Shown here one piece after another: positions 1 through 17,822 of a stretch of DNA of 62,174 bases (positions are counted from its first letter, which is position 1; every line of letters begins with the position of its first letter). The position numbers and the translations under genes were made by a program. Source of the DNA: a virus; IMG/VR virus record IMGVR_UViG_3300026512_000013, positions 1 through 62,174 of that record; one strand, written 5' to 3'. A model generated the notes under the pieces. The model searched no databases. It saw only the letters and a list, made by a program, of their open reading frames with translations, and had not been told where the DNA came from.

Positions 1-260
1 TTTTCTCATTCTGAACGTATGTTCTATAATTATAAAATTTTAACATTCTATTAAAAATCAATTCTAAGCAACTTTATTATATAGTAATATCAAAATATCA
101 GTATATTATATAAATAGCTTAAAACTCAAATTTAAGCGTTATAATGATATTTTAATAATATTCTACTATTGATATTTTAAGCTATTAATATCAATTTAAT
201 ATCTATCTAATATCTATCAATCAATTAAATATCAATACATTATAATTGCTATAATAGCGT

Positions 261-362
261 TTTAACGCCCAAATTTGAGTATATAGCGACTTTTAGCGTT
301 AACTTGATATTATATTCATGTTAGCATTAAAGTTGCTTAAAACTCAAATTTGGGCGTTAAAA
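261..362. repeat. 21-bp perfect inverted repeat (about 100-nt stem-loop)
   Basis: The arms at 261-281 and 342-362 are exact reverse complements, with a core of AACGCCCAAATTTGAGT. The 60-bp centre is itself partly self-complementary (GCGACTTTTAGCGTTAAC against GTTAGCATTAAAGTTGC), so the whole segment could fold into one long hairpin. A third, diverged arm lies at about 121-141. It sits downstream of the terminator of the leftmost gene. It could be an operator, a processing site or a recombination site; the sequence alone does not decide. Confidence 0.75.
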
Positions 363-384
363 TTATATTTTTATTTATTGCAAT

Positions 385-416
385 AAAAAAGCAAGTTAAT
401 TATATTATTAACTCGC
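385..416 (-). terminator. Intrinsic terminator after the leftmost gene
   Basis: On the minus strand a GCGAGTTAAT/AATTAACTTGC stem-loop is followed by a run of T (A-run 385-390 on the plus strand), just downstream of the stop codon at 443. Confidence 0.7.
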
Positions 417-442
417 TCAAGTTGTTGATATTACTTATTTTA

Positions 443-988
443 TTAACAAGTTTCAATACTTAACAACCCGTCAACGTAATACTCCCCACCATTCACAGAA
501 AATAGTTCTTCTATTTCATCGTCTGTTATTTCATCAGTTTGTAATTGTTCAGGTGTATATATACAAAATTCAAATTTATTATCTTGTATATACTCATCTA
601 TTACTTCAATTTCGTCTAATTGATATGGATTTGGTATTATAATAGTTTCTGTGTATATTGTACCAGTGCTAAACGTTGCAATTACAAAATCCATTTCTAT
701 AAATTCATTGTAAACTACCTCATTTATTAAATTTTCATAAATTGCAAATCCTTGCACATCATCAACGATACACAATTTTAATTCATTTTGTAAAAAATCG
801 TTAATATCGCTATAGCTTATAAGTAAACAACCACCACTAACCATGCCATATTGATAATCATTTTTAATAGCTTCTATTGTATCGATTTTATCCTGAACAG
901 TTTCGCCAAAATCATACATTTCTAAAACATGATTTCTTACTACTTCAACCTGATTGTCTGTTAATTCCACGTTAATTTTTAAATTCAT
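443..988 (-). CDS. Acidic hypothetical protein, 181 aa
   Basis: Unrecognised acidic protein without membrane segments. Residues about 47-70 (YGMVSGGCLLISYSDINDFL) resemble the G-x-S-G-x-ISYSDT-type segment of some phage and plasmid proteins of unknown function, but the match is weak. The start is supported by AAAAGGATGG nine bases upstream. The leader contains two small palindromes (CGGGTA/TACCCG and ATTATACA/TGTATAAT), as do the next two genes. Its high acidity resembles ArdA-type DNA mimics, but no ArdA motif is present, so a counter-defence role is only a guess from context. Confidence 0.75.
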   Translation of the reverse strand: MNLKINVELTDNQVEVVRNHVLEMYDFGETVQDKIDTIEAIKNDYQYGMVSGGCLLISYSDINDFLQNELKLCIVDDVQGFAIYENLINEVVYNEFIEMDFVIATFSTGTIYTETIIIPNPYQLDEIEVIDEYIQDNKFEFCIYTPEQLQTDEITDDEIEELFSVNGGEYYVDGLLSIETC

Positions 989-1090
989 TTTATACCATCC
1001 TTTTTTTTATATATATTATACATTATTGTATAATAACATGAATATTTTTTTATTCTATGTATCGGGTAAAATACCCGTTTGTTACTTATG

Positions 1091-1399
1091 TTAAAATTCA
1101 ATTTCTTCTTCAAGTTCTTCAAGTTCTTCAAGTTTATAATAATAATCATTTAATAATTCTTCAATTTCTTCAAGATAATATTCTATAATACGATATTCTT
1201 TATAATAATCTATATAATCATTTTTTACACTTTTTAATTCTTCTCTAAAAAAAATTTCGCTCATTTCTTCAAGTTGACTAATTACATCGTTTATTTCGTT
1301 TTCATATTGAGAATTGATATCAAATTCATTTTTAAAATCTTCAAGTTCTTCAATTTCATTGACAAATTTTTCTTCAAATGTTAAATTATTATTTTTCAT
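1091..1399 (-). CDS. Very acidic coiled-coil hypothetical protein, 102 aa
   Basis: Unrecognised. The protein is rich in Glu and Leu with repeats such as EELEELEELEEEIEF at the C-terminus, which predicts an alpha-helical coiled coil with strong negative charge. No cysteine clusters or membrane segments. The start is set by AAAAAAGGGTGG upstream of ATG. The leader carries a palindrome AACCACTT/AAGTGGT, the word ATACATAAG and a second hairpin GTATTACA/TGTAATAC, the same order seen in the genes on either side. It may be a small acidic early regulator or DNA mimic, with no direct support. Confidence 0.7.
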   Translation of the reverse strand: MKNNNLTFEEKFVNEIEELEDFKNEFDINSQYENEINDVISQLEEMSEIFFREELKSVKNDYIDYYKEYRIIEYYLEEIEELLNDYYYKLEELEELEEEIEF

Positions 1400-1482
1400 T
1401 TTATACCACCCTTTTTTATAATTTAGTATTACATTGTTGTAATACTTATGTATACCACTTATAAAGTGGTTTGTTACTTATG

Positions 1483-2749: not shown

Positions 2750-2769
2750 ATTAGAAAGTTATTAACATG

Positions 2770-3017
2770 TTATCAACAACTAAAAAAAGTTATCAACAAT
2801 TTATTGACTTATGCACAATTTTATTATATACTGTGCATAACTTAAAGAAATAAAAGTTATTAACAAGTTATTAACAATTTTATCAACAACTCAAAAAGTT
2901 TACAATAAACTTACAATTGAGTAAGCGTGACTTATTAACAATTTATGTTATAATGTTAATAACGTTATTCACAGTTTATCAACAACTTATTCACAGTTTA
3001 TCAACAGTTTATCAACA
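2770..3017. other. Cluster of DnaA-box-like 9-mers (candidate origin core)
   Basis: TTATCAACA occurs at 2770, 2790, 2880, 2976, 2998 and 3009. TTATTCACA occurs at 2965 and 2987. TTATGCACA occurs at 2809, with its reverse complement at 2832-2840. The last two words fit the DnaA consensus TTATNCACA exactly; TTATCAACA differs from TTATCCACA by one base. Such a density over 250 bp is far above chance, although the DNA is AT-rich. Confidence 0.65.
2927..2954 (+). promoter_or_regulatory. Candidate plus-strand promoter inside the DnaA-box cluster
   Basis: GTGACT, a 16-base spacer and TATAAT (2949-2954). It would transcribe rightward into the structured segment and the terminator at 3275-3315, giving an RNA of about 350 nt with no reading frame. 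Confidence 0.45.
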
Positions 3018-3019
3018 GA

Positions 3020-3031
3020 GAACAAATGTTC
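3020..3031. promoter_or_regulatory. LexA/DinR-like box GAACAAATGTTC
   Basis: Fits GAAC-RNRY-GTTC exactly. A near-identical context (AGAGAACAA-TGTTCG) recurs at 9837-9852. Confidence 0.5.
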
Positions 3032-3180
3032 GATTTTAAGCGAAAATTCTAAATTTTTCAAACTAATGTTTGGTAAACAGAACAGTACAAATGTAAACTA
3101 AATTCTATAAATGTAATATATAATTTAATTTACAAAAATAAATTTTCAATTACAAAAGAAAATCAAAAAACATTTGAGAT

Positions 3181-3315
3181 TTTTGAAATGTGCCGCTGAG
3201 GGACAATATACGTCCCATAGCACGAATTTTCAGATGTGCCGCCTAGATTACAATGTTTAATTATTATTCTAATTAAAAAAAGACTAATTAAAATTAATTA
3301 ATTAGTCTTTTTTTT
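3181..3315 (+). ncRNA. Candidate structured RNA, copy A, with terminator
   Basis: GC-richer than its surroundings. It contains two copies of a word like TTTTCAGATGTGCCGC (3181-3195 and 3227-3242) and a GGGAC/GTCCC hairpin between them, and it ends in a stem-loop plus T-run at 3275-3315. The stretch 3222-3242 matches 9949-9969 at 19 of 21 bases, so this module exists twice. No reading frame. Direction is inferred from the T-run and the candidate promoter at 2927. Confidence 0.45.
3275..3315. terminator. Bidirectional intrinsic terminator
   Basis: The stem AGACTAATTA/TAATTAGTCT is flanked by an A-run on the left and a T-run on the right. The stop codon of the minus-strand gene at 3294 lies inside the hairpin. 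Confidence 0.75.
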
Positions 3316-4238
3316 ACACCTCTATATTTATTATTTTCTTTTCTACTTAACCAACAACATGTATCTTTTGAATATATTCTTTTACTGTGAGGTAAATTAA
3401 ATTGTAATTTGTCTTTGTCCAAATCTAATTTATTATTTAATATTTTACTTTCATTGTACCCTTCTAATTTAATTATATCTAAAAGATAGTTGTCAAACCT
3501 AAACCAACTTTTATGAACAGTAATTCCCTTTGCACCATAGTTATGAAAATTTTTACTATTTTTATTATAACAACGTATTATCATACCATCCCATCTATCA
3601 TATAATGTATCTTTTAAACTTTGACTAATAGGGATATATTTACTATACCCTTGCGTTTTATTAAAACTAGTATATTTAAGATAATCAGTAAATTTATTAA
3701 GTATAATATCATGAAAATTACAATGCCAAATTGCATTGTTTTTGTGTCCTTTAACTATATAGCAATCCTTTAATCTACTTTTAGCAATTACAGTAACCTT
3801 TTGATTATCTGATTGATAAGTATATCCAACTTTTATATTATCATAATATTTATCTCTAATTTCACCAGTCCATACATGATGTTGTTGTTCTAATTGCTCA
3901 TTTCCACTATTAATAAATTTAATCAAATAATGTTTTCTATTATCATTTTTATTATATTTTATTATTAATCCACTACCTATTAACATAAATTTCCCATATT
4001 GATTAGTATTAAATATTTGTCCTAAATATGCATTTTTAGATATACTAACATCATATACACTTCCCATATTAACTTGTTTACTTCGTGCCCACTTTTTAAA
4101 ATTAGTATTTATAAATTCAATATTATACCCTTTTCTTTTATTTCTTATTTCAAAATTTAATACTTTATATTTACCACAATTATTACTTTCATATATATTA
4201 CCTATTTCAATGTTATACTTTTGATATGTTTCTTTCAT
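3294..4238 (-). CDS. HNH-type homing-endonuclease-like protein, 314 aa
   Basis: The C-terminal half carries the pattern of a phage HNH-like family: W-D-G-M-I-x-R-C-Y-N, then HNYGAKGITVHKSWFRFDNY, then LDLDKD and YSKDTCCWLSRKENN. The N-terminal half contains several short repeated modules of the form G-x-I/V-Y/F-x-S/T-N-x-x-G-K, probably DNA-binding. Free-standing proteins of this type spread by cutting DNA next to their own gene. A dedicated promoter (4287-4315) and terminator isolate it. It is related to the genes at 20611 and 12407. Catalytic activity is inferred, not seen. Confidence 0.75.
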   Translation of the reverse strand: MKETYQKYNIEIGNIYESNNCGKYKVLNFEIRNKRKGYNIEFINTNFKKWARSKQVNMGSVYDVSISKNAYLGQIFNTNQYGKFMLIGSGLIIKYNKNDNRKHYLIKFINSGNEQLEQQHHVWTGEIRDKYYDNIKVGYTYQSDNQKVTVIAKSRLKDCYIVKGHKNNAIWHCNFHDIILNKFTDYLKYTSFNKTQGYSKYIPISQSLKDTLYDRWDGMIIRCYNKNSKNFHNYGAKGITVHKSWFRFDNYLLDIIKLEGYNESKILNNKLDLDKDKLQFNLPHSKRIYSKDTCCWLSRKENNKYRGVKKRLIN

Positions 4239-4286
4239 AATTTCCTTTCTTATTAATATCCTTCATATTAATATATTATTTATAAA

Positions 4287-4315
4287 AGTATAACATACTT
4301 CAATAAAATTGTCAA
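4287..4315 (-). promoter_or_regulatory. Sigma-A promoter for the HNH gene at 3294
   Basis: Minus strand TTGACA (4310-4315), 17-base spacer, TATACT (4287-4292). Confidence 0.75.
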
Positions 4316-4346
4316 GGAGTTATTTTAAAATTTTATTATTCTAAAT

Positions 4347-4390
4347 AAAAAAAACTCATTACATTTATATTATGTAATGAGTTTTATTTT
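4347..4390. terminator. Bidirectional terminator
   Basis: The stem AAAACTCATTACAT/ATGTAATGAGTTTT has an A-run on one side and a T-rich run on the other, downstream of the small gene at 4414. Confidence 0.7.
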
Positions 4391-4413
4391 ATTATTATTA
4401 CTATATTATTTAA

Positions 4414-4536
4414 CTATTTTCTACTTGTCAATTGTATACACCTAACCCCTATAAGTCCTACAGTAAACCATAAACCACTTATTAATAACATTCTAATTGG
4501 TAATACCATTATATCTAAAAACACCTTAAAATACAT
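4414..4536 (-). CDS. Small membrane protein, 40 aa
   Basis: Starts MYFKVFLDIMVLPIRMLLIS and continues with GLWFTVGLIGV, giving one hydrophobic segment. The ATG is preceded by GGAAGGTG at six bases, and a terminator follows the stop codon. It lies just downstream of the gene at 4585. Function unknown. Confidence 0.55.
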   Translation of the reverse strand: MYFKVFLDIMVLPIRMLLISGLWFTVGLIGVRCIQLTSRK

Positions 4537-4584
4537 TTTTAACACCTTCCTTTTGATTACTACTATAATTATTAATATACTATT

Positions 4585-4929
4585 TTATAACTCTTCATTA
4601 TAACTGTAACTATTTTCAATCTCTTCACATGTTAAATAATAATGTTCATTTTCTAATAAATCAGTTACTAATAAATTTAATAACTCATAATTTCCTTCAA
4701 CTTCTAAATAATTTTCATCCTCAACAACAACATGATAATAAGCATTAATTATATATTGTTCTGAAAAAATTAAATCTTTATCATTTAAAAATTCTTCTAA
4801 AGTATCCCAATAAACACCCTCATTATACATATCTAAATTACTTTGAGTTGTCCAGTTTCCACTACCTTTAAATGTTTCTTTTAATAAATCATATAATTCA
4901 CTATCAAATTCAATATTACCTTTTTTCAT
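4585..4929 (-). CDS. Acidic hypothetical protein, 114 aa
   Basis: Unrecognised, strongly acidic, no membrane segment. It contains FKGSGNWTTQSNLDMYNEGV near residues 20-39 and an acidic C-terminus. The start is confirmed by AAAAGGATGG and by the promoter at 4979-5007. It belongs to the promoter family shared with the ArdA gene, which suggests early expression; an anti-host role would be guesswork. Confidence 0.75.
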   Translation of the reverse strand: MKKGNIEFDSELYDLLKETFKGSGNWTTQSNLDMYNEGVYWDTLEEFLNDKDLIFSEQYIINAYYHVVVEDENYLEVEGNYELLNLLVTDLLENEHYYLTCEEIENSYSYNEEL

Positions 4930-4978
4930 TTTATACCATCCTTTTGATTTAATTTCTCTTATGTATTTCCTTGACTTA

Positions 4979-5007
4979 ATTATACTACAAGTAATATGTT
5001 AAGTCAA
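4979..5007 (-). promoter_or_regulatory. Early promoter with mirrored -35 (gene 4585)
   Basis: TTGACT (5002-5007), 17-base spacer, TATAAT (4979-4984). A 13-bp inverted repeat TTCCTTGACTTAA/TTAAGTCAAGGAA (4967-4979 and 4999-5011) places one arm over the -35 and the other over the -10 and first transcribed bases. The leader then has ATACATAAGA. Confidence 0.8.
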
Positions 5008-5060
5008 GGAATTTTTACTATTTATTTTATTATTCTATGTTATTTTATTCTATGTTATTT

Positions 5061-5489
5061 CTATTGATAATTAATATCTTTTATTAATTCATTTGTTAAT
5101 TTATACTTTATTTCATTCCCAATGAAATCAAACCAATCATCAACATTTTCTAATACATCACAAAATTCTTCTGGTGTTAAATGTTTCATAATATAATCAG
5201 TATCAAACATTAATTTTAAAAACTCATATTCATCTACTATACGTATTAAAAACTCTTTGAGTGTGATTTTACGAGCAAATAAGTACTTAAAGAAATCAGT
5301 ATCATATAAATTTTTATTGTTTAATTTTATAACAGTTTCAGTATAAATTTTTAAATTTTTATAAGTTTCTTCAATGCAATAATTCATACATATTTGATTG
5401 AATTTCATTAATTCAGTAAATTGTTTAACTTTTAATTTGTCATTTTTTAATTTGTTATTTTCTAATTGTTTTAATTGTTTATTTTTCAA
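5061..5489 (-). CDS. Hypothetical protein, 142 aa, TTG start
   Basis: Unrecognised. The longer frame reaching 5576 begins upstream of the promoter at 5545-5573, so it cannot be the real start. The best start is TTG at 5489 with GGAAGTG ahead, giving MKNKQLKQLENNKLKND. The N-terminus is a run of Lys/Asn/Leu repeats and the rest is helical and acidic (TPEEFCDVLENVDDWFDFIG). The gene at 5597 has the same initiation site. Confidence 0.65.
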   Translation of the reverse strand: MKNKQLKQLENNKLKNDKLKVKQFTELMKFNQICMNYCIEETYKNLKIYTETVIKLNNKNLYDTDFFKYLFARKITLKEFLIRIVDEYEFLKLMFDTDYIMKHLTPEEFCDVLENVDDWFDFIGNEIKYKLTNELIKDINYQ

Positions 5490-5544
5490 TTTGTCACTTC
5501 CTTTTAATATTATTCTAATGTATCCCACTTGTTTAACTAACTTC

Positions 5545-5573
5545 ATTATATCATAGTAGTATAATGAAGTTAA
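5545..5573 (-). promoter_or_regulatory. Early promoter with inverted repeat (gene 5061)
   Basis: TTAACT (5568-5573), 17-base spacer, TATAAT (5545-5550). The arms GTTAACTTCATTAT and ATAATGAAGTTA mirror each other across the spacer. Confidence 0.75.
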
Positions 5574-5596
5574 CATTTATTTACTTATTTTTATTA

Positions 5597-5839
5597 TTAA
5601 AATTCATCTAACCATTCTAAAAATTCATTAATAGTATTATCTGTTATTACTAAAAAATTTGCATACCTTGAATCACTAAAACTACACCATAGTATATAAA
5701 TTCGATATATTGATATATATTCAATTGAATTATCAATATTTTGTAATTTTGATTTAATTTCATAAATACTGTTTATATACTCATCTGGGATAATTTCTTC
5801 TTTTTTTATTTTTTTAAATATCATTGCTGTTAATTTCAA
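5597..5839 (-). CDS. Hypothetical protein, 80 aa, TTG start
   Basis: Unrecognised small protein with IYRIYILWCSFSDSRYANFL in the middle and a C-terminal NTINEFLEWLDEF motif resembling the end of the gene at 5945 (NKINEFLYKIK), so the two may be distant paralogues. The TTG at 5839 follows GGAAGTGACAAA, the same context as the gene at 5061. The leader contains an AGAGAATTA/TAATTCTCT hairpin. Confidence 0.6.
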   Translation of the reverse strand: MKLTAMIFKKIKKEEIIPDEYINSIYEIKSKLQNIDNSIEYISIYRIYILWCSFSDSRYANFLVITDNTINEFLEWLDEF

Positions 5840-5905
5840 TTTGTCACTTCCTTTTTTAATTTTAGAGAATTACTTTTTAATTCTCTTTCCTCTATTTCTA
5901 AATAT

Positions 5906-5934
5906 ATTATACCACTATTAATATTATAAGTCAA
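5906..5934 (-). promoter_or_regulatory. Early promoter (gene 5597)
   Basis: TTGACT (5929-5934), 17-base spacer, TATAAT (5906-5911). Confidence 0.75.
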
Positions 5935-5944
5935 ACATTATTTA

Positions 5945-6199
5945 CTATTTAATTTTATATAAAAATTCATTAATTTTATTATTACTTATGATATATCTAT
6001 ATAAATTATTTTTAGTATATAAGTATTCATTATTTTTAAATTTTTTATATATACATTTTTCTAAAAATTCAACATCAACTTTTTTCCATCCTATTGTATA
6101 CCAATTATTTCTAATTTTAGCTTCTTGATATATTAAAATCTGTTTATTTTCTAATATGTAAGAATTTCTATCATTCAATAAATTACTATTGTTTTTCAT
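5945..6199 (-). CDS. Hypothetical protein, 84 aa
   Basis: Unrecognised basic protein rich in Asn, Lys and Tyr, with no membrane segment or cysteine cluster. ATG is preceded by AAAAGGATGG and by its own promoter at 6248-6276. The ending NKINEFLYKIK resembles that of the gene at 5597. Confidence 0.65.
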   Translation of the reverse strand: MKNNSNLLNDRNSYILENKQILIYQEAKIRNNWYTIGWKKVDVEFLEKCIYKKFKNNEYLYTKNNLYRYIISNNKINEFLYKIK

Positions 6200-6247
6200 T
6201 TTAATACCATCCTTTTATAATTTTACTGTATTTCCTTTGATACTCTT

Positions 6248-6276
6248 ATTATACTATAAGTAATATAATAAGTCAA
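6248..6276 (-). promoter_or_regulatory. Early promoter (gene 5945)
   Basis: TTGACT (6271-6276), 17-base spacer, TATAAT (6248-6253). Confidence 0.75.
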
Positions 6277-6325
6277 ACATTATTTATAATATTTATTTTA
6301 TTATTTATTTTAATTAATTTTAAAT

Positions 6326-6355
6326 AAAAAAATGCTACTATATTAATATAGTAGC
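6326..6355 (-). terminator. Intrinsic terminator
   Basis: GCTACTATAT/ATATAGTAGC forms a perfect hairpin (6334-6355), followed on the minus strand by a run of seven T. Confidence 0.7.
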
Positions 6356-6634
6356 TAAGCAATTGTATATTATAGCAAAAAGGTTGGTACAAAACTATAA
6401 TATTTTATCGGTAATTAATTACATAAGATATTATTAAATATCATTAGAAATCAAGTATTATACACGCATATACACGCAAGTATAATATCTTATGTTATGA
6501 ATTTACACAGTATTAAATTGTAGTTGTGTATATACGCATTTATTAAATATTACTGTATTTCTAACATTTTTATGTTTAAGAAATACAGTAATAACAACAG
6601 TTTCTTCAAGTGTAAATTATAAATTTTAAGTAAA
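6356..6634 (-). other. Gene-less segment with nested inverted repeats
   Basis: Downstream of the HTH gene and upstream of the terminator at 6326, with no reading frame. It holds three inverted repeats: ACATAAGATATTAT/ATAATATCTTATGT (6421-6434 and 6482-6495), ATTACTGTATTTCT/AGAAATACAGTAAT (about 6549-6562 and 6579-6592), and AATTTACAC/GTGTAAATT (6505-6513 and 6610-6618). It also has two ATACACGCA words. It could be a structured 3' RNA or a separate regulatory RNA. Confidence 0.5.
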
Positions 6635-6901
6635 TTATATAAATTTTGTGTAGTCTGTAATATCACACACTATATCAGTTAAACTCATATCAAAATTTAT
6701 ACATATATCATTTAACTTTTTTAAATTTATTGAATAAATACCATTTTTATAATTATGATATGTTTGTTTACTCATGTTATTTAATTCATAAAATTCCTTT
6801 TGATACATACCTTTACCATTTCTAATTTTATCAATTTTTTTAAATATTTCTATTGTCTTAACACATATATTATTATTATTATTATTATTATTCATTTTCA
6901 T
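6635..6901 (-). CDS. XRE/Cro-type helix-turn-helix regulator, 88 aa
   Basis: The pattern YQKEFYELNNMSKQTYHNYK, then NLKKLNDICINFDMSLTDI, is a classic Cro/CI helix-turn-helix: recognition-helix S-x-x-T-x-x-x-Y, then the L-x-x-I-x-x-x-F segment. It probably represses early or lysis-lysogeny promoters. The N-terminus has eight Asn from an AAT trinucleotide run. ATG at 6901 is chosen (6895 is also possible); it overlaps the end of the gene at 6888. It is in one operon with 6888 and 7118. Confidence 0.7.
   Translation of the reverse strand: MKMNNNNNNNNICVKTIEIFKKIDKIRNGKGMYQKEFYELNNMSKQTYHNYKNGIYSINLKKLNDICINFDMSLTDIVCDITDYTKFI
6866..6892. repeat. AAT trinucleotide run (copy 1)
   Basis: Read as the Asn run at the start of the HTH protein. 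A second run lies at about 7086-7122, and both follow a duplicated GAAGTTGAT-AAATGAA ending. Confidence 0.8.
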
Positions 6902-7070
6902 CAACTTCTTTTAAATTTTCAATCCCATAATATTCAATAAAAATAAGTAGTATTTCTAAATAGTTTTTATTTTTATAAAAATTTAATATCTCTTGAATAG
7001 TGTTAAATCCATTTTCTTTTATATTTTCAATATCTACATTAATACAATCTAATAACATTTTATTATTCAT
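6888..7070 (-). CDS. Hypothetical protein, 60 aa
   Basis: Small acidic helical protein, unrecognised, ending LKEVDENE. The ending matches the one of the upstream gene at 7118 (KEVDRNE) at DNA level, a small duplication. GGAAGG precedes ATG. It overlaps the HTH gene, which suggests translational coupling. Confidence 0.6.
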   Translation of the reverse strand: MNNKMLLDCINVDIENIKENGFNTIQEILNFYKNKNYLEILLIFIEYYGIENLKEVDENE

Positions 7071-7085
7071 TTTAATACCTTCCTT

Positions 7086-7366
<281 letters not shown>

Positions 7367-7422
7367 TTTAATACCTTCCTTTATATTGTTTAATAATTTC
7401 TCTTATGTATTTCCTTAACTTT

Positions 7423-7451
7423 ATTATATCACTGTATAATATTAAAGTTAA
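7423..7451 (-). promoter_or_regulatory. Early promoter with inverted repeat (7118-6888-6635 operon)
   Basis: TTAACT (7446-7451), 17-base spacer, TATAAT (7423-7428). The arms CCTTAACTTT and AAAGTTAAGG mirror each other. The leader carries ATACATAAGAG. Confidence 0.75.
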
Positions 7452-7497
7452 GGAATATTTATTATTTTATTCTATTACTTATTTTATGTTGTTTATT

Positions 7498-7980
7498 CTA
7501 TTGTTCACACAATAAACCAAAATCAGTCAACCAACTTCCACCATCCATTAATATATCTCTTCCAAAACTCTTATAATTAAAATATCTTTCAGTAGTTTCA
7601 CATAATTCTAAAAATTCTGCATAATATTCACCAACATCATACTCATCATCAATATCATATAATAAATAATAATTTCCAATATTTACCAACTCTTCAGAAC
7701 CATGTATTTCAATTATTGCTTTTACTAAATTTTCATCATCATCACATAATTCATAAATATCAAATAATTCATCAACATTATCATATTCATTAATTTCTAA
7801 ATTTAAATCATTTTCATAATCATGAATAGCAAACTCTTCATTACCATTTTTATTTAACATATTTTGAATTTCCTCTTCAACTTCTGAACTATCTGAGTAA
7901 TTATTAAAATCTAACCATTTCCCTACTAAATTCCCATTGTTATATTCTGCTAAATCTGCTACATAAATTTTAAAGTTCAT
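7498..7980 (-). CDS. ardA: Antirestriction protein ArdA, 160 aa
   Basis: ArdA proteins mimic bent DNA and block type I restriction-modification enzymes when an element enters a new cell. The sequence shows the family layout: IYVADLAEYNNGNLVGKWLD at the N-terminus, then EEFAIHDYEND, GNYYLLYDIDDEYDVGEYYA, and RYFNYKSFGRDI near the end, with a very high Asp/Glu content. Length is typical (about 165). It has its own early promoter at 8038-8066 and the AAAAGGATGG binding site. It supports reading the surrounding small genes as early entry genes. Confidence 0.92.
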   Translation of the reverse strand: MNFKIYVADLAEYNNGNLVGKWLDFNNYSDSSEVEEEIQNMLNKNGNEEFAIHDYENDLNLEINEYDNVDELFDIYELCDDDENLVKAIIEIHGSEELVNIGNYYLLYDIDDEYDVGEYYAEFLELCETTERYFNYKSFGRDILMDGGSWLTDFGLLCEQ

Positions 7981-8037
7981 TCTAATACCATCCTTTTAAT
8001 TTTAATTTAATTTCCCTTATGTTTCTTCCTTGACTTA

Positions 8038-8066
8038 ATTATACTATAGTATATTAATCAAGTCAA
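8038..8066 (-). promoter_or_regulatory. Early promoter with mirrored -35 (ardA)
   Basis: TTGACT (8061-8066), 17-base spacer, TATAAT (8038-8043). The word AAGTCAAGGA recurs just after the -10, as in the other members of the family. Confidence 0.8.
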
Positions 8067-8091
8067 GGATTATTTATTTTATTTTATAAAT

Positions 8092-8472
8092 TTATTTCCT
8101 TAATAATATTTTATAATCTTTTAATCCTATATCATATTTTATAGAATCTTTATCATCACTTTTTAATAAGCGTGTTATACGTTCAATTTTACAAAATAAT
8201 TCATGATATAATTGTTCTAACATTTCTTCATAATTTTCATTTCCAATATTTGAGTGAACACAAATTTCTTGTTTTTCACCATTTAAATAATAATATGAAA
8301 TACCATTTTTTTCTACTGTTAATTTATTTTTAATAAAAACTCTACTTAAAAAACTAATATATGTATTTTTCATATTATAATTTTTAAAGTCTGAGTTTTT
8401 ATTTATTCTTTTGTTACTATATCTAAAATATTCTTCTACCATTGATTTGTCTAATACTAATTTATTTTTCAT
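8092..8472 (-). CDS. Hypothetical protein, 126 aa
   Basis: Unrecognised basic protein with no membrane segment or metal motif. Features include YFRYSNKRINKNSDFKNYN near the N-terminus and a helical C-terminal half. It has its own early promoter (8550-8578) and the family leader. Confidence 0.65.
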   Translation of the reverse strand: MKNKLVLDKSMVEEYFRYSNKRINKNSDFKNYNMKNTYISFLSRVFIKNKLTVEKNGISYYYLNGEKQEICVHSNIGNENYEEMLEQLYHELFCKIERITRLLKSDDKDSIKYDIGLKDYKILLRK

Positions 8473-8549
8473 TTTATACCACCTTTAATTTTAATTTAAT
8501 AATCAACTATTGATTATTATTTATTTATCTTATGTATTTCCTTGACTTA

Positions 8550-8578
8550 ATTATACTACAAGTAATATATTAAGTCAA
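8550..8578 (-). promoter_or_regulatory. Early promoter with mirrored -35 (gene 8092)
   Basis: TTGACT (8573-8578), 17-base spacer, TATAAT (8550-8555), with the same mirrored CTTGACTTAA/TTAAGTCAAG arms as at 4979. Confidence 0.8.
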
Positions 8579-8595
8579 GAAATTTTTACTTTATT

Positions 8596-9015
8596 TTATA
8601 AATATTTTATGTTATTTTCATATCTTAATTTTTCAACTGGTTCATACATAAAGCTTAATAATCTACAATATAACCATCCATGATTGATATATAAATTAGT
8701 TTTAAATATTTCTGTATAATCACCTTTAAAATAACATTTAAACAATAATTCAATATCTTTTCTATTTATAATATTTGTGTGTTTTATAAATCTATTATCA
8801 ACTACAATTTTTTTATACATTTTATTTATAGCTTTTCTATCTATAATAGAATTAATAAATTGTTTATCATTTAATTTTTTAAATTTTATTATTTCTAAAT
8901 CTGAAAAATATAATGGATAATCACCTTTTATTTTAATTTTGAATTGTTCAAATTTCATATCGGTAAAATAATTTTTTACTTCTTTACTAATAGTAATTTT
9001 AACTTCATATAACAT
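8596..9015 (-). CDS. Hypothetical protein, 139 aa
   Basis: Unrecognised; mixed alpha/beta, basic, no cysteine cluster. It is the second gene of a pair with 9041 (26-base gap) under the promoter at 9407. AAAAGGATGG precedes ATG. Confidence 0.6.
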   Translation of the reverse strand: MLYEVKITISKEVKNYFTDMKFEQFKIKIKGDYPLYFSDLEIIKFKKLNDKQFINSIIDRKAINKMYKKIVVDNRFIKHTNIINRKDIELLFKCYFKGDYTEIFKTNLYINHGWLYCRLLSFMYEPVEKLRYENNIKYL

Positions 9016-9040
9016 ATTAACACCATCCTTTTAATTTAAT

Positions 9041-9358
9041 TTATTTTGAATAATTATTTAATAAATTTTCAACTCTAATTATATTCGCTTGAATATTTGT
9101 TAATATAAAATCATATTCAAATTTATTCACTTTTGCAATTTCTCTTTCATACCCTTTTACGGTTTTAGTATCATTTGCTTTTGTTAATATTGTAAATAAA
9201 TTTTTAACACCTTTTGAAAAATAAATACTTATATCATTTCTTTCTTCTTCATTAATTATTTTTTTTTCTAATAACTCAGACAATTTCATTTCTAAATTAG
9301 ATACTTTTTCACTTTTTAAAATTGTTAATGTTTTTTCTACCATTTGATTTTTAGTCAT
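9041..9358 (-). CDS. Helical hypothetical protein, 105 aa
   Basis: Predicted all-helical, with leucine-spaced segments (MKLSELLEKKIINEEERNDI). No known family. First gene after the promoter at 9407-9434. Confidence 0.6.
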   Translation of the reverse strand: MTKNQMVEKTLTILKSEKVSNLEMKLSELLEKKIINEEERNDISIYFSKGVKNLFTILTKANDTKTVKGYEREIAKVNKFEYDFILTNIQANIIRVENLLNNYSK

Positions 9359-9406
9359 TTTAATTACTTCCTTTCAATAGTTTATGTATTCCCTTTGATT
9401 AATTAC

Positions 9407-9434
9407 AGTATATCACATTGATATTATAAGTCAA
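9407..9434 (-). promoter_or_regulatory. Early promoter (9041-8596 pair)
   Basis: TTGACT (9429-9434), 16-base spacer, TATACT (9407-9412). It marks the right edge of the early-gene block. Confidence 0.7.
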
Positions 9435-9702: not shown

Positions 9703-9840
9703 TAAAAAAATAAGTTAAAAAATGATACTAATATAATTTAGTTGGAAAAATTCCACCTCGATAACCACTATCAACGCAAACAATATGGGGAGTATATTTT
9801 TTTGGACTTATCGAACATAGTTTATTAATTTTAAAAAAGA

Positions 9841-9888
9841 GAACAATTGTTCGGAAAACTTCTGTTCTATATTATCGAACACTTGTTT
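9841..9888. promoter_or_regulatory. Two LexA-like boxes
   Basis: GAACAATTGTTC (9841-9852) is a perfect palindrome, and GAACACTTGTTT (9877-9888) is a near match. Both resemble GAAC-RNRY-GTTC with one or two deviations. Confidence 0.45.
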
Positions 9889-9939
9889 TGTATTATAAAA
9901 ATTACGAATGTAAAATTAAGATTACAAATGAGAAAAAAG

Positions 9940-10051
9940 TTACTGAAACGAATTTTCAAATGTCCCGCTGAGCTATGACAATCTGGCGACACTGTCTTGC
10001 CGACATAGATTTACATTAAACTATTATAATTAAATTATAATAGTTTTTTTA
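9940..10051 (+). ncRNA. Candidate structured RNA, copy B, with terminator
   Basis: ACGAATTTTCAAATGTCCCGC at 9949-9969 repeats 3222-3242 with two changes. It is followed by GC-richer, hairpin-prone sequence (CTGGCGACACTGTCTTGCCG) and a terminator. No reading frame. The order LexA-like box, AT-rich stretch, conserved word, plus-strand terminator is the same in both copies. Confidence 0.45.
10018..10051 (+). terminator. Plus-strand intrinsic terminator
   Basis: AAACTATTATAAT/ATTATAATAGTTT stem with TTTTTTT. It is one of the few strong plus-strand terminators and supports a real plus-strand transcript here. Confidence 0.75.
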
Positions 10052-17215: not shown

Positions 17216-17431
17216 TTATTTATCCTCCTTATTGGCTTCAATTTCAACTATTTCAAATACGCCTTGTCTAAAAGGATGCTCAGTAAAACCACATTTTTCA
17301 CAAATAGCTTTTCCACTTTCCCATTCAATTAATTCAGATTCTCCATTTGTATTTACTACACAATCACCATCAATCTTACAATGAATATAATCTGTTAAAT
17401 TTCCGCATGATGGACATTTCCATTTTTTCAT
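17216..17431 (-). CDS. Zinc-ribbon protein, 71 aa
   Basis: CPSCG at the N-terminus and CEKCG in the middle make a four-Cys zinc ribbon with a long beta insertion. No enzymatic motif. Possibly a nucleic-acid-binding or adaptor protein. Confidence 0.65.
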   Translation of the reverse strand: MKKWKCPSCGNLTDYIHCKIDGDCVVNTNGESELIEWESGKAICEKCGFTEHPFRQGVFEIVEIEANKEDK

Positions 17432-17432
17432 A

Positions 17433-17822
17433 TTAATTATCCTCCTCTAAATTTCTATTAGCATCTTCAATTATTTCATTTAATATTACAAATTCATCTA
17501 CATATAATCCTACTACAATAAATTCTTTATTAACCACTGTCTCATTATATTCACTAATATCAATGTCAACCTCTAAGTCAAGTTCATCATATTGTAATTC
17601 AGTAATACGTTTAATTGTTATTCCTGACTGTGGTGAATTATTAACCAATTTAAAATTAATAGTATCATTAATTAATAGTTTCATATTATCATAAATATTA
17701 TAATCTAATTTAGTAAGTTTACTATTATTATAAAATTCACTAAAGTTCATAATTATATTCTTGTATGGATTTATAATTATAAAACCATTTTTATTATTTT
17801 TAATTAACACCCATTTATTCAT
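17433..17822 (-). CDS. Hypothetical protein, 129 aa
   Basis: Unrecognised; beta-rich start (KWVLIKNNKNGFIIINPYKN), acidic C-terminus. A possible 18-codon frame follows upstream at about 17828-17884 but is not well supported. Confidence 0.6.
   Translation of the reverse strand: MNKWVLIKNNKNGFIIINPYKNIIMNFSEFYNNSKLTKLDYNIYDNMKLLINDTINFKLVNNSPQSGITIKRITELQYDELDLEVDIDISEYNETVVNKEFIVVGLYVDEFVILNEIIEDANRNLEEDN

Follow-up and report, generated by a model that had tools for sequence, protein, structure and literature searches.

Introduction

In phage lambda, the OOP RNA combines a LexA site with a short terminated transcript directed against neighbouring genes, near the origin. In phage T5, the halt of DNA entry after the first ∼8% is an old open question. 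The stop region has usually been described by its repeats and DnaA boxes, and the stop signal, composed of repeats, palindromes and DnaA boxes, is thought to meet host components (PMC13250531). With regard to Gram-positive bacteria, the LexA sites of Bacillus phage GIL01 repress the lysogeny promoter P1 and act together with the phage protein gp7 (PMC4551915), LexA sites of Clostridioides difficile were searched for with the motifs GAACnnnnGTTC and GAACnnnnGTTT (PMC4234289), and in Bacillus subtilis ChIP-seq work Fur boxes were scored against a 15-base 7-1-7 consensus, TGATAATNATTATCA (PMC6212828).

Here, we have analyzed a window of 62,174 bases (GC 25%), which is the whole IMG/VR virus record IMGVR_UViG_3300026512_000013, and compared two similar non-coding modules in it with the pre-early region of T5-like phages. 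To the description of this region, we add LexA boxes, present in each of the eight Demerecviridae tested, Fur arrays in the enterobacterial ones, and the same succession of sites in a Gram-positive phage that is unrelated to them.

Results and discussion

The window and its probable host

Nearly all genes of the window are carried by the minus strand. The replication proteins (polymerase III alpha type, RecJ-like, DnaB-like, RecD-like, primase and ligase) are closest to those of SPbeta-like Bacillus phages or other large Gram-positive phages (∼26–33% identity), so the host is probably a low-GC Gram-positive bacterium. Searches for relatives with the HNH, SLT or polymerase proteins gave none or only distant ones. 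The record is probably a fragment, and no end repeats were found within its 62,174 bases. Near its left end, non-coding DNA at 253–369 contains an inverted repeat of 41 nt (83% complementarity) that includes GCGTTTTAACGCC and CTCAAATTTG.

Two modules with common parts

The sequence-only reading had described twin non-coding modules, each ∼190–200 bp long, in which a LexA-like box, a conserved word and a plus-strand terminator follow each other in the same order. Module A (3016–3315, plus strand) and module B (9837–10051, plus strand) indeed have in common a dyad, AGAGAACAA[A/T]TGTTCG, at 3017–3032 and 9838–9853 (15 of 16 positions identical), and a 21-bp word, ACGAATTTTCA[G/A]ATGT[G/C]CCGC, at 3222–3242 and 9948–9968 (19 of 21 identical), and the order and orientation of dyad, word and hairpin agree. 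The equal length did not hold up: A is ∼300 bp long and B ∼215 bp, and the distance from dyad to word is ∼205 bp in A versus 110 bp in B. With composition-weighted scoring, the match between A and B ranked first in the window (34.1, versus 24.3 for the next unrelated one), whereas its unweighted score of 37 was hardly above the AT-rich background (shuffle maximum, 36).

The GC-rich word is present twice in A on the plus strand, at 3181–3200 (TTTTGAAATGTGCCGCTGAG) and 3222–3242 (the copy that matches B), and once in B (9948–9972, plus strand); the exact string CCGCTGAG occurs in the window only at 3193 and 9965. No homologue of the word and no RNA fold common to A and B could be identified. A pattern scan of viral contigs gave one chance match inside a tape-measure-like gene, the 17 matches in genome contigs had scattered GC and no LexA box upstream, and blastn against phages gave no match. 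None of the 45 matches to AGAGAACAAWTGTTCG in viral contigs had an A/B-like downstream region, and the relatives found through NrdD (64–71% identity) did not contain the word. A short reading frame including the word was also considered and rejected, as no frame had a convincing ribosome site.

Each module closes with an A/T-rich hairpin and a T-run. The hairpin of B (10018–10050) is terminator-like on the plus strand (z −5.2), and no neighbouring gene or annotated frame needs a terminator there. That of A (3275–3314) is terminator-like in both directions (z −7.0 on the plus strand and −7.6 on the minus strand), so that the earlier description as a plus-strand terminator was only partly right for this module. 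Because it is bidirectional and contains the stop codon of the HNH gene (3294–4238, minus strand), the hairpin of A may simply end that gene.

LexA-type boxes

The dyad common to A and B is a clostridial-type LexA box (GAACNNNNGTT[TC]; GAACN4GTT[TC]). Five sites in the window fit the C. difficile motifs GAACnnnnGTTC or GAACnnnnGTTT (13, 3020, 9841, 9856 and 9877). All five belong to A, B or the left end of the window, and the suggestion of a LexA-like box is well supported. Module A carries GAACAAATGTTC at 3020–3031 and a weaker second dyad, AAACTAATGTTT, at 3060–3071, whose first base departs from the published motif. Module B has three boxes in a row at 9841–9888: GAACAATTGTTC at 9841, GAACAGAAGTTT at 9856 (on the minus strand) and GAACACTTGTTT at 9877. 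The left-end box, GAACGTATGTTC, is at 13–24 and is directly followed by TATAAT. The three sites of B and the GAACN4GTTC at 13–24 had gone unremarked in the sequence-only reading. GAACN4GTT[TC] occurs five times in the 62 kb, compared with a mean of 1.27 (maximum 5) in shuffles, and two LexA-type sites within 60 bp were found in one of 300 shuffles of the window. Judged from their motif, these boxes could be bound by the LexA of the host. Adjacent Gram-positive LexA sites in phage DNA, as in module B, are known from GIL01 (dinBox1/1b; PMC4551915); in contrast to the control region of that phage, no strong promoter was identified at A or B.

DnaA and Fur arrays beside module A

Two arrays directly against A had also been missed. 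The first consists of 13 DnaA boxes TTATNMACA on the plus strand (2759–3017), three of which are TTATNCACA, with two further boxes on the minus strand. The second consists of nine Fur-type 7-1-7 boxes TGATAATNATTMTCA on the plus strand (2217–2749; starts at 2217, 2366, 2544, 2579, 2604, 2620, 2689, 2705 and 2735), which match 14–15 of the 15 positions of the consensus TGATAATNATTATCA, the centre base being free. Their spacing is irregular (149, 178, 35, 25, 16, 69, 16 and 30), and no Fur-type box could be found elsewhere in the window. The best 300-bp interval contained 13 DnaA boxes (shuffle maximum, 3), and neither the Fur nor the DnaA box count was attained in any of 1000 shuffles of this region; it should be noted that the Fur, DnaA and LexA motifs were recognised only after inspection of the sequence. 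The Fur-type boxes are followed after 9 bases by the DnaA array, and the latter after 2 bases by the LexA-type box of A. Module B has neither DnaA nor Fur boxes. Other repeats were seen in the non-coding DNA nearby: AAACGTTCGT occurs three times at 2002–2204, two copies lying within AAACGTTCGTGTTTT, and a 29-nt direct repeat (AAAATACTTTATTTAATAAAGTCAAAATT) is present at ∼2270–2327, in a non-coding region that also holds AAACGTTCGT copies.

The gene block between the modules

As previously proposed, A and B bracket an early-gene block. This minus-strand block of small genes (3294–9358), which we infer to be pre-early, includes the HNH endonuclease and an ArdA antirestriction gene (7498–7980), and carries repeated strong promoters. 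In the direction of the genes, the order is B with its three LexA boxes, the block (9358–3294), A with its LexA box, the DnaA boxes and the Fur array. Repeated 81-nt cassettes at 4949–9434 contain minus-strand promoters of the TTGACT-17-TATAAT type or a near relative (5007, 5934, 6276, 7451, 8066 and 8578). The promoter lies inside a dyad, CTTGACTTAA...TTAAGTCAAG, which resembles a phage operator repeated ahead of each small gene.

Comparison with T5-like phages

When the region was compared with annotated phages by blastn, it matched the terminal repeats of T5-like phages and stretches of non-coding DNA in Stephanstirmvirinae, in both cases through the Fur array. In the direction of the genes, the T5-like matches contain a near-perfect LexA box (TACTGTATATTTATACAGTA or its like), identified by the enterobacterial LexA consensus, then DnaA boxes and a Fur array. 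We examined Demerecviridae from Escherichia, Salmonella, Klebsiella, Pectobacterium, Vibrio and Aeromonas, which had been collected through the A1 protein (down to 31% A1 identity) or blastn matches. Using all enterobacterial-type LexA boxes in the fetched stretches, which were chosen around the pre-early region, 1–2 LexA boxes were found ⩽80 bp from a strict DnaA box in all of the eight phages tested (0–0.003 in shuffles). The Fur array was clear in the phages of Escherichia, Salmonella and Klebsiella and not in those of Pectobacterium, Vibrio and Aeromonas; Fur arrays were far above the shuffle mean in six of six phages tested. In BF23, inverted modules of LexA and DnaA boxes (5377–5484 and 8956–9063) bracket the pre-early genes (5751–8812) and have a GC-rich word in common (GTTAGAANGCG...TAGGNCG), and the downstream module runs on into a Fur array (9099–9235).

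The same set of sites recurs in the T5-like phages (BF23, OR083247; Shivani, NC_028754; ESCO40, OM386660) at the place that matches the window: LexA, DnaA and Fur sites follow each other in this order on the downstream side of the pre-early block, another module with LexA boxes lies upstream of it, and the twin modules have a GC-rich word in common. The orientation of the DnaA boxes relative to the genes is also the same in BF23 and the window. On the other hand, the LexA box of the window is of the Gram-positive type and that of the T5-like phages enterobacterial, the twins are direct in the window and inverted in BF23, and module B has no DnaA boxes, unlike the second module of BF23. The window has many more DnaA and Fur sites than the T5-like region and lacks its TGTGCRAATCCGACA repeats. 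The long direct terminal repeat of T5-like phages was not seen in the window record, which is a fragment, and in the same fragment tblastn of BF23 proteins (E up to 1) revealed no homologue of A1, A2 or Dmp. Because no such homologue is detectable, the likeness of the two layouts appears, on the simplest reading, to be convergent and driven by the binding of host proteins; common descent of the two regions may still be considered.

Several controls were included. In Enterocloster phage CB457P2 and Brevibacillus phage Sundance, with ∼100 kb examined for each, no cluster of LexA, DnaA and Fur sites was found, and the stretches of two large Clostridioides phages had a DnaA cluster alone. C. difficile phage LIBA6276 and plasmid pCd18_3 resemble the window in having a co-oriented, intergenic TTATNMACA cluster in an element of a low-GC host, and differ from it in that no Fur or LexA sites lie alongside. 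Such DnaA clusters, at 17405–17490 in a large C. difficile phage and 1509–1570 in a plasmid, are possibly plain origins. When IMG/VR was scanned for Fur-type boxes lying 5–35 bp before a DnaA box, 19 records were obtained, and among them only the two T5-like ones had clusters; a scan for Fur doublets gave no match. Short arrays of Fur boxes were also observed in non-coding DNA (1980–2090) of the Stephanstirmvirinae phages PD114 and tuntematon, where they are not accompanied by LexA or DnaA clusters, and Klebsiella phage KB57 may be a weaker case (∼1500–1550). In the papers searched, LexA or Fur sites in the T5 terminal repeat were not reported, and the LexA and DnaA boxes seen at both pre-early borders of every T5-like phage tested are apparently not described; an earlier mention elsewhere may exist.

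Proposed docking modules for host regulators

We give about even chances to the reading that A and B act in cis, as DNA modules at which host regulators dock on either side of the pre-early block, and that they work like the injection stop of T5; on our best reading, they are not primarily RNA genes. On entry, LexA, DnaA and Fur of the host would occupy their sites on the incoming phage DNA, and nucleoprotein complexes would form at the two ends of this block. These complexes would delay the entry, transcription or replication of the remaining genome until pre-early products act, a delay similar to that proposed for the T5 injection-stop region. The GC-rich word might be bound by a pre-early protein that the phage encodes; this is the weakest step, a guess drawn from the word that the BF23 twins have in common.

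Several facts count against docking. LexA and Fur normally act on promoters, and no strong plus-strand promoter overlaps the sites of A or B; in addition, B lacks DnaA and Fur boxes. The window, probably a fragment, also showed no A1, A2 or Dmp homologue and no terminal repeat, so that entry in two steps, as in T5, is a candidate mechanism here. A wider proposal, possible but on the whole doubtful, is that unrelated phages across host phyla independently built a docking island with LexA boxes at both pre-early borders, followed by DnaA boxes and then a Fur array, each in its host's own versions of the sites, and that this island reads the damage, replication and iron state of the host or employs the bound proteins as a clamp, thereby gating the passage from pre-early to full infection. 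If this is true, a region of the phage would be kept in function by the specificity of host proteins and not by its sequence. The presence of the sites in T5-like phages makes a direct test in Escherichia coli possible.

Alternative explanations

The strongest rival, although rather unlikely in our estimate, is a DnaA-dependent replication origin. The 15-bp repeats would then be iterons, or sites modulated by Fur, within AT-rich DNA that unwinds; the helicase would be loaded at the DnaA boxes, and A would be no more than the edge of the origin. This agrees with the 13 co-oriented DnaA boxes that adjoin very AT-rich repeats, and large C. difficile phages and a plasmid have DnaA clusters without LexA or Fur sites. 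However, the repeats follow the Fur 7-1-7 box position by position, only the centre being free, and their uneven spacing is unlike that of iterons; the GC skew does not change sign here, and the best adjacent candidate for an initiator is a non-significant Rep_OBD match (4585–4929, E 0.033). Moreover, an origin leaves the LexA boxes and module B unexplained. An origin and a docking role could coexist.

It is unlikely that A and B encode short plus-strand regulatory RNAs which, similar to lambda OOP RNA, are repressed by LexA and induced in the SOS response. Such a pair of small RNAs had been suggested in the sequence-only reading, and the suggestion now appears weak. The common word in the same order, the plus-strand terminator of B that no gene needs and the promoter-like sites on the plus strand upstream of A (2804 and 2927) speak for it, and so does a weak promoter within the LexA cluster of B (TTGTTC-17-TATTAT, 9847–9875), which is surrounded by LexA sites. 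With respect to A, its best promoter points in the opposite direction (3061, minus strand), its terminator also ends the HNH gene and is stable on either strand, and its small hairpin has z values of −2.9 and −3.5 on the two strands. The core of B folds no better than shuffles (z +0.3), no fold is common to both, the spacing differs, and neither a homologue nor an Rfam match at or near A or B was found. A compensated G/C change that had been drawn by hand in a short stem of the word was given up in view of this folding of the B core, and the two copies cannot show covariation. The likeness to OOP lies in a LexA site and a short terminated transcript, a candidate one in A and B, near an origin-like region; the differences are that A and B overlap no target gene beyond the common terminator of A and that no fold is conserved. 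Of the two modules, B is the better case, and a LexA-controlled short RNA from it may be kept as a candidate on account of its gene-free plus-strand terminator and the weak promoter in its LexA cluster.

Still less probable is a decoy (sponge), by which replicating phage DNA would titrate DnaA, Fur and LexA of the host, slow the initiation of replication and unlock iron and repair genes. Such titration is favoured by the large number of sites that each genome carries (13 DnaA boxes and nine of the Fur type) and by the Fur arrays of T5-like and Stephanstirmvirinae phages. LexA, Fur and DnaA are each present at hundreds to thousands of copies per cell, however, and early in infection a single genome offers few sites against these numbers; the LexA sites are too few for titration, and a decoy needs neither a fixed order nor a position at the borders.

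Finally, the earlier idea that A and B are the ends of a mobile or duplicated segment, to which similar stretches in the same orientation on either side of one block had pointed, can be given very little credence, since only short words are alike, the orientation is direct and not inverted, the inner spacing differs and no transposase was found among the scanned proteins of the block. As a separate observation on repeats, a phage contig unrelated to the window (1–1450) carries several intergenic GAACAATTGTTCGG repeats, some of them in GC-rich hairpin-like units.
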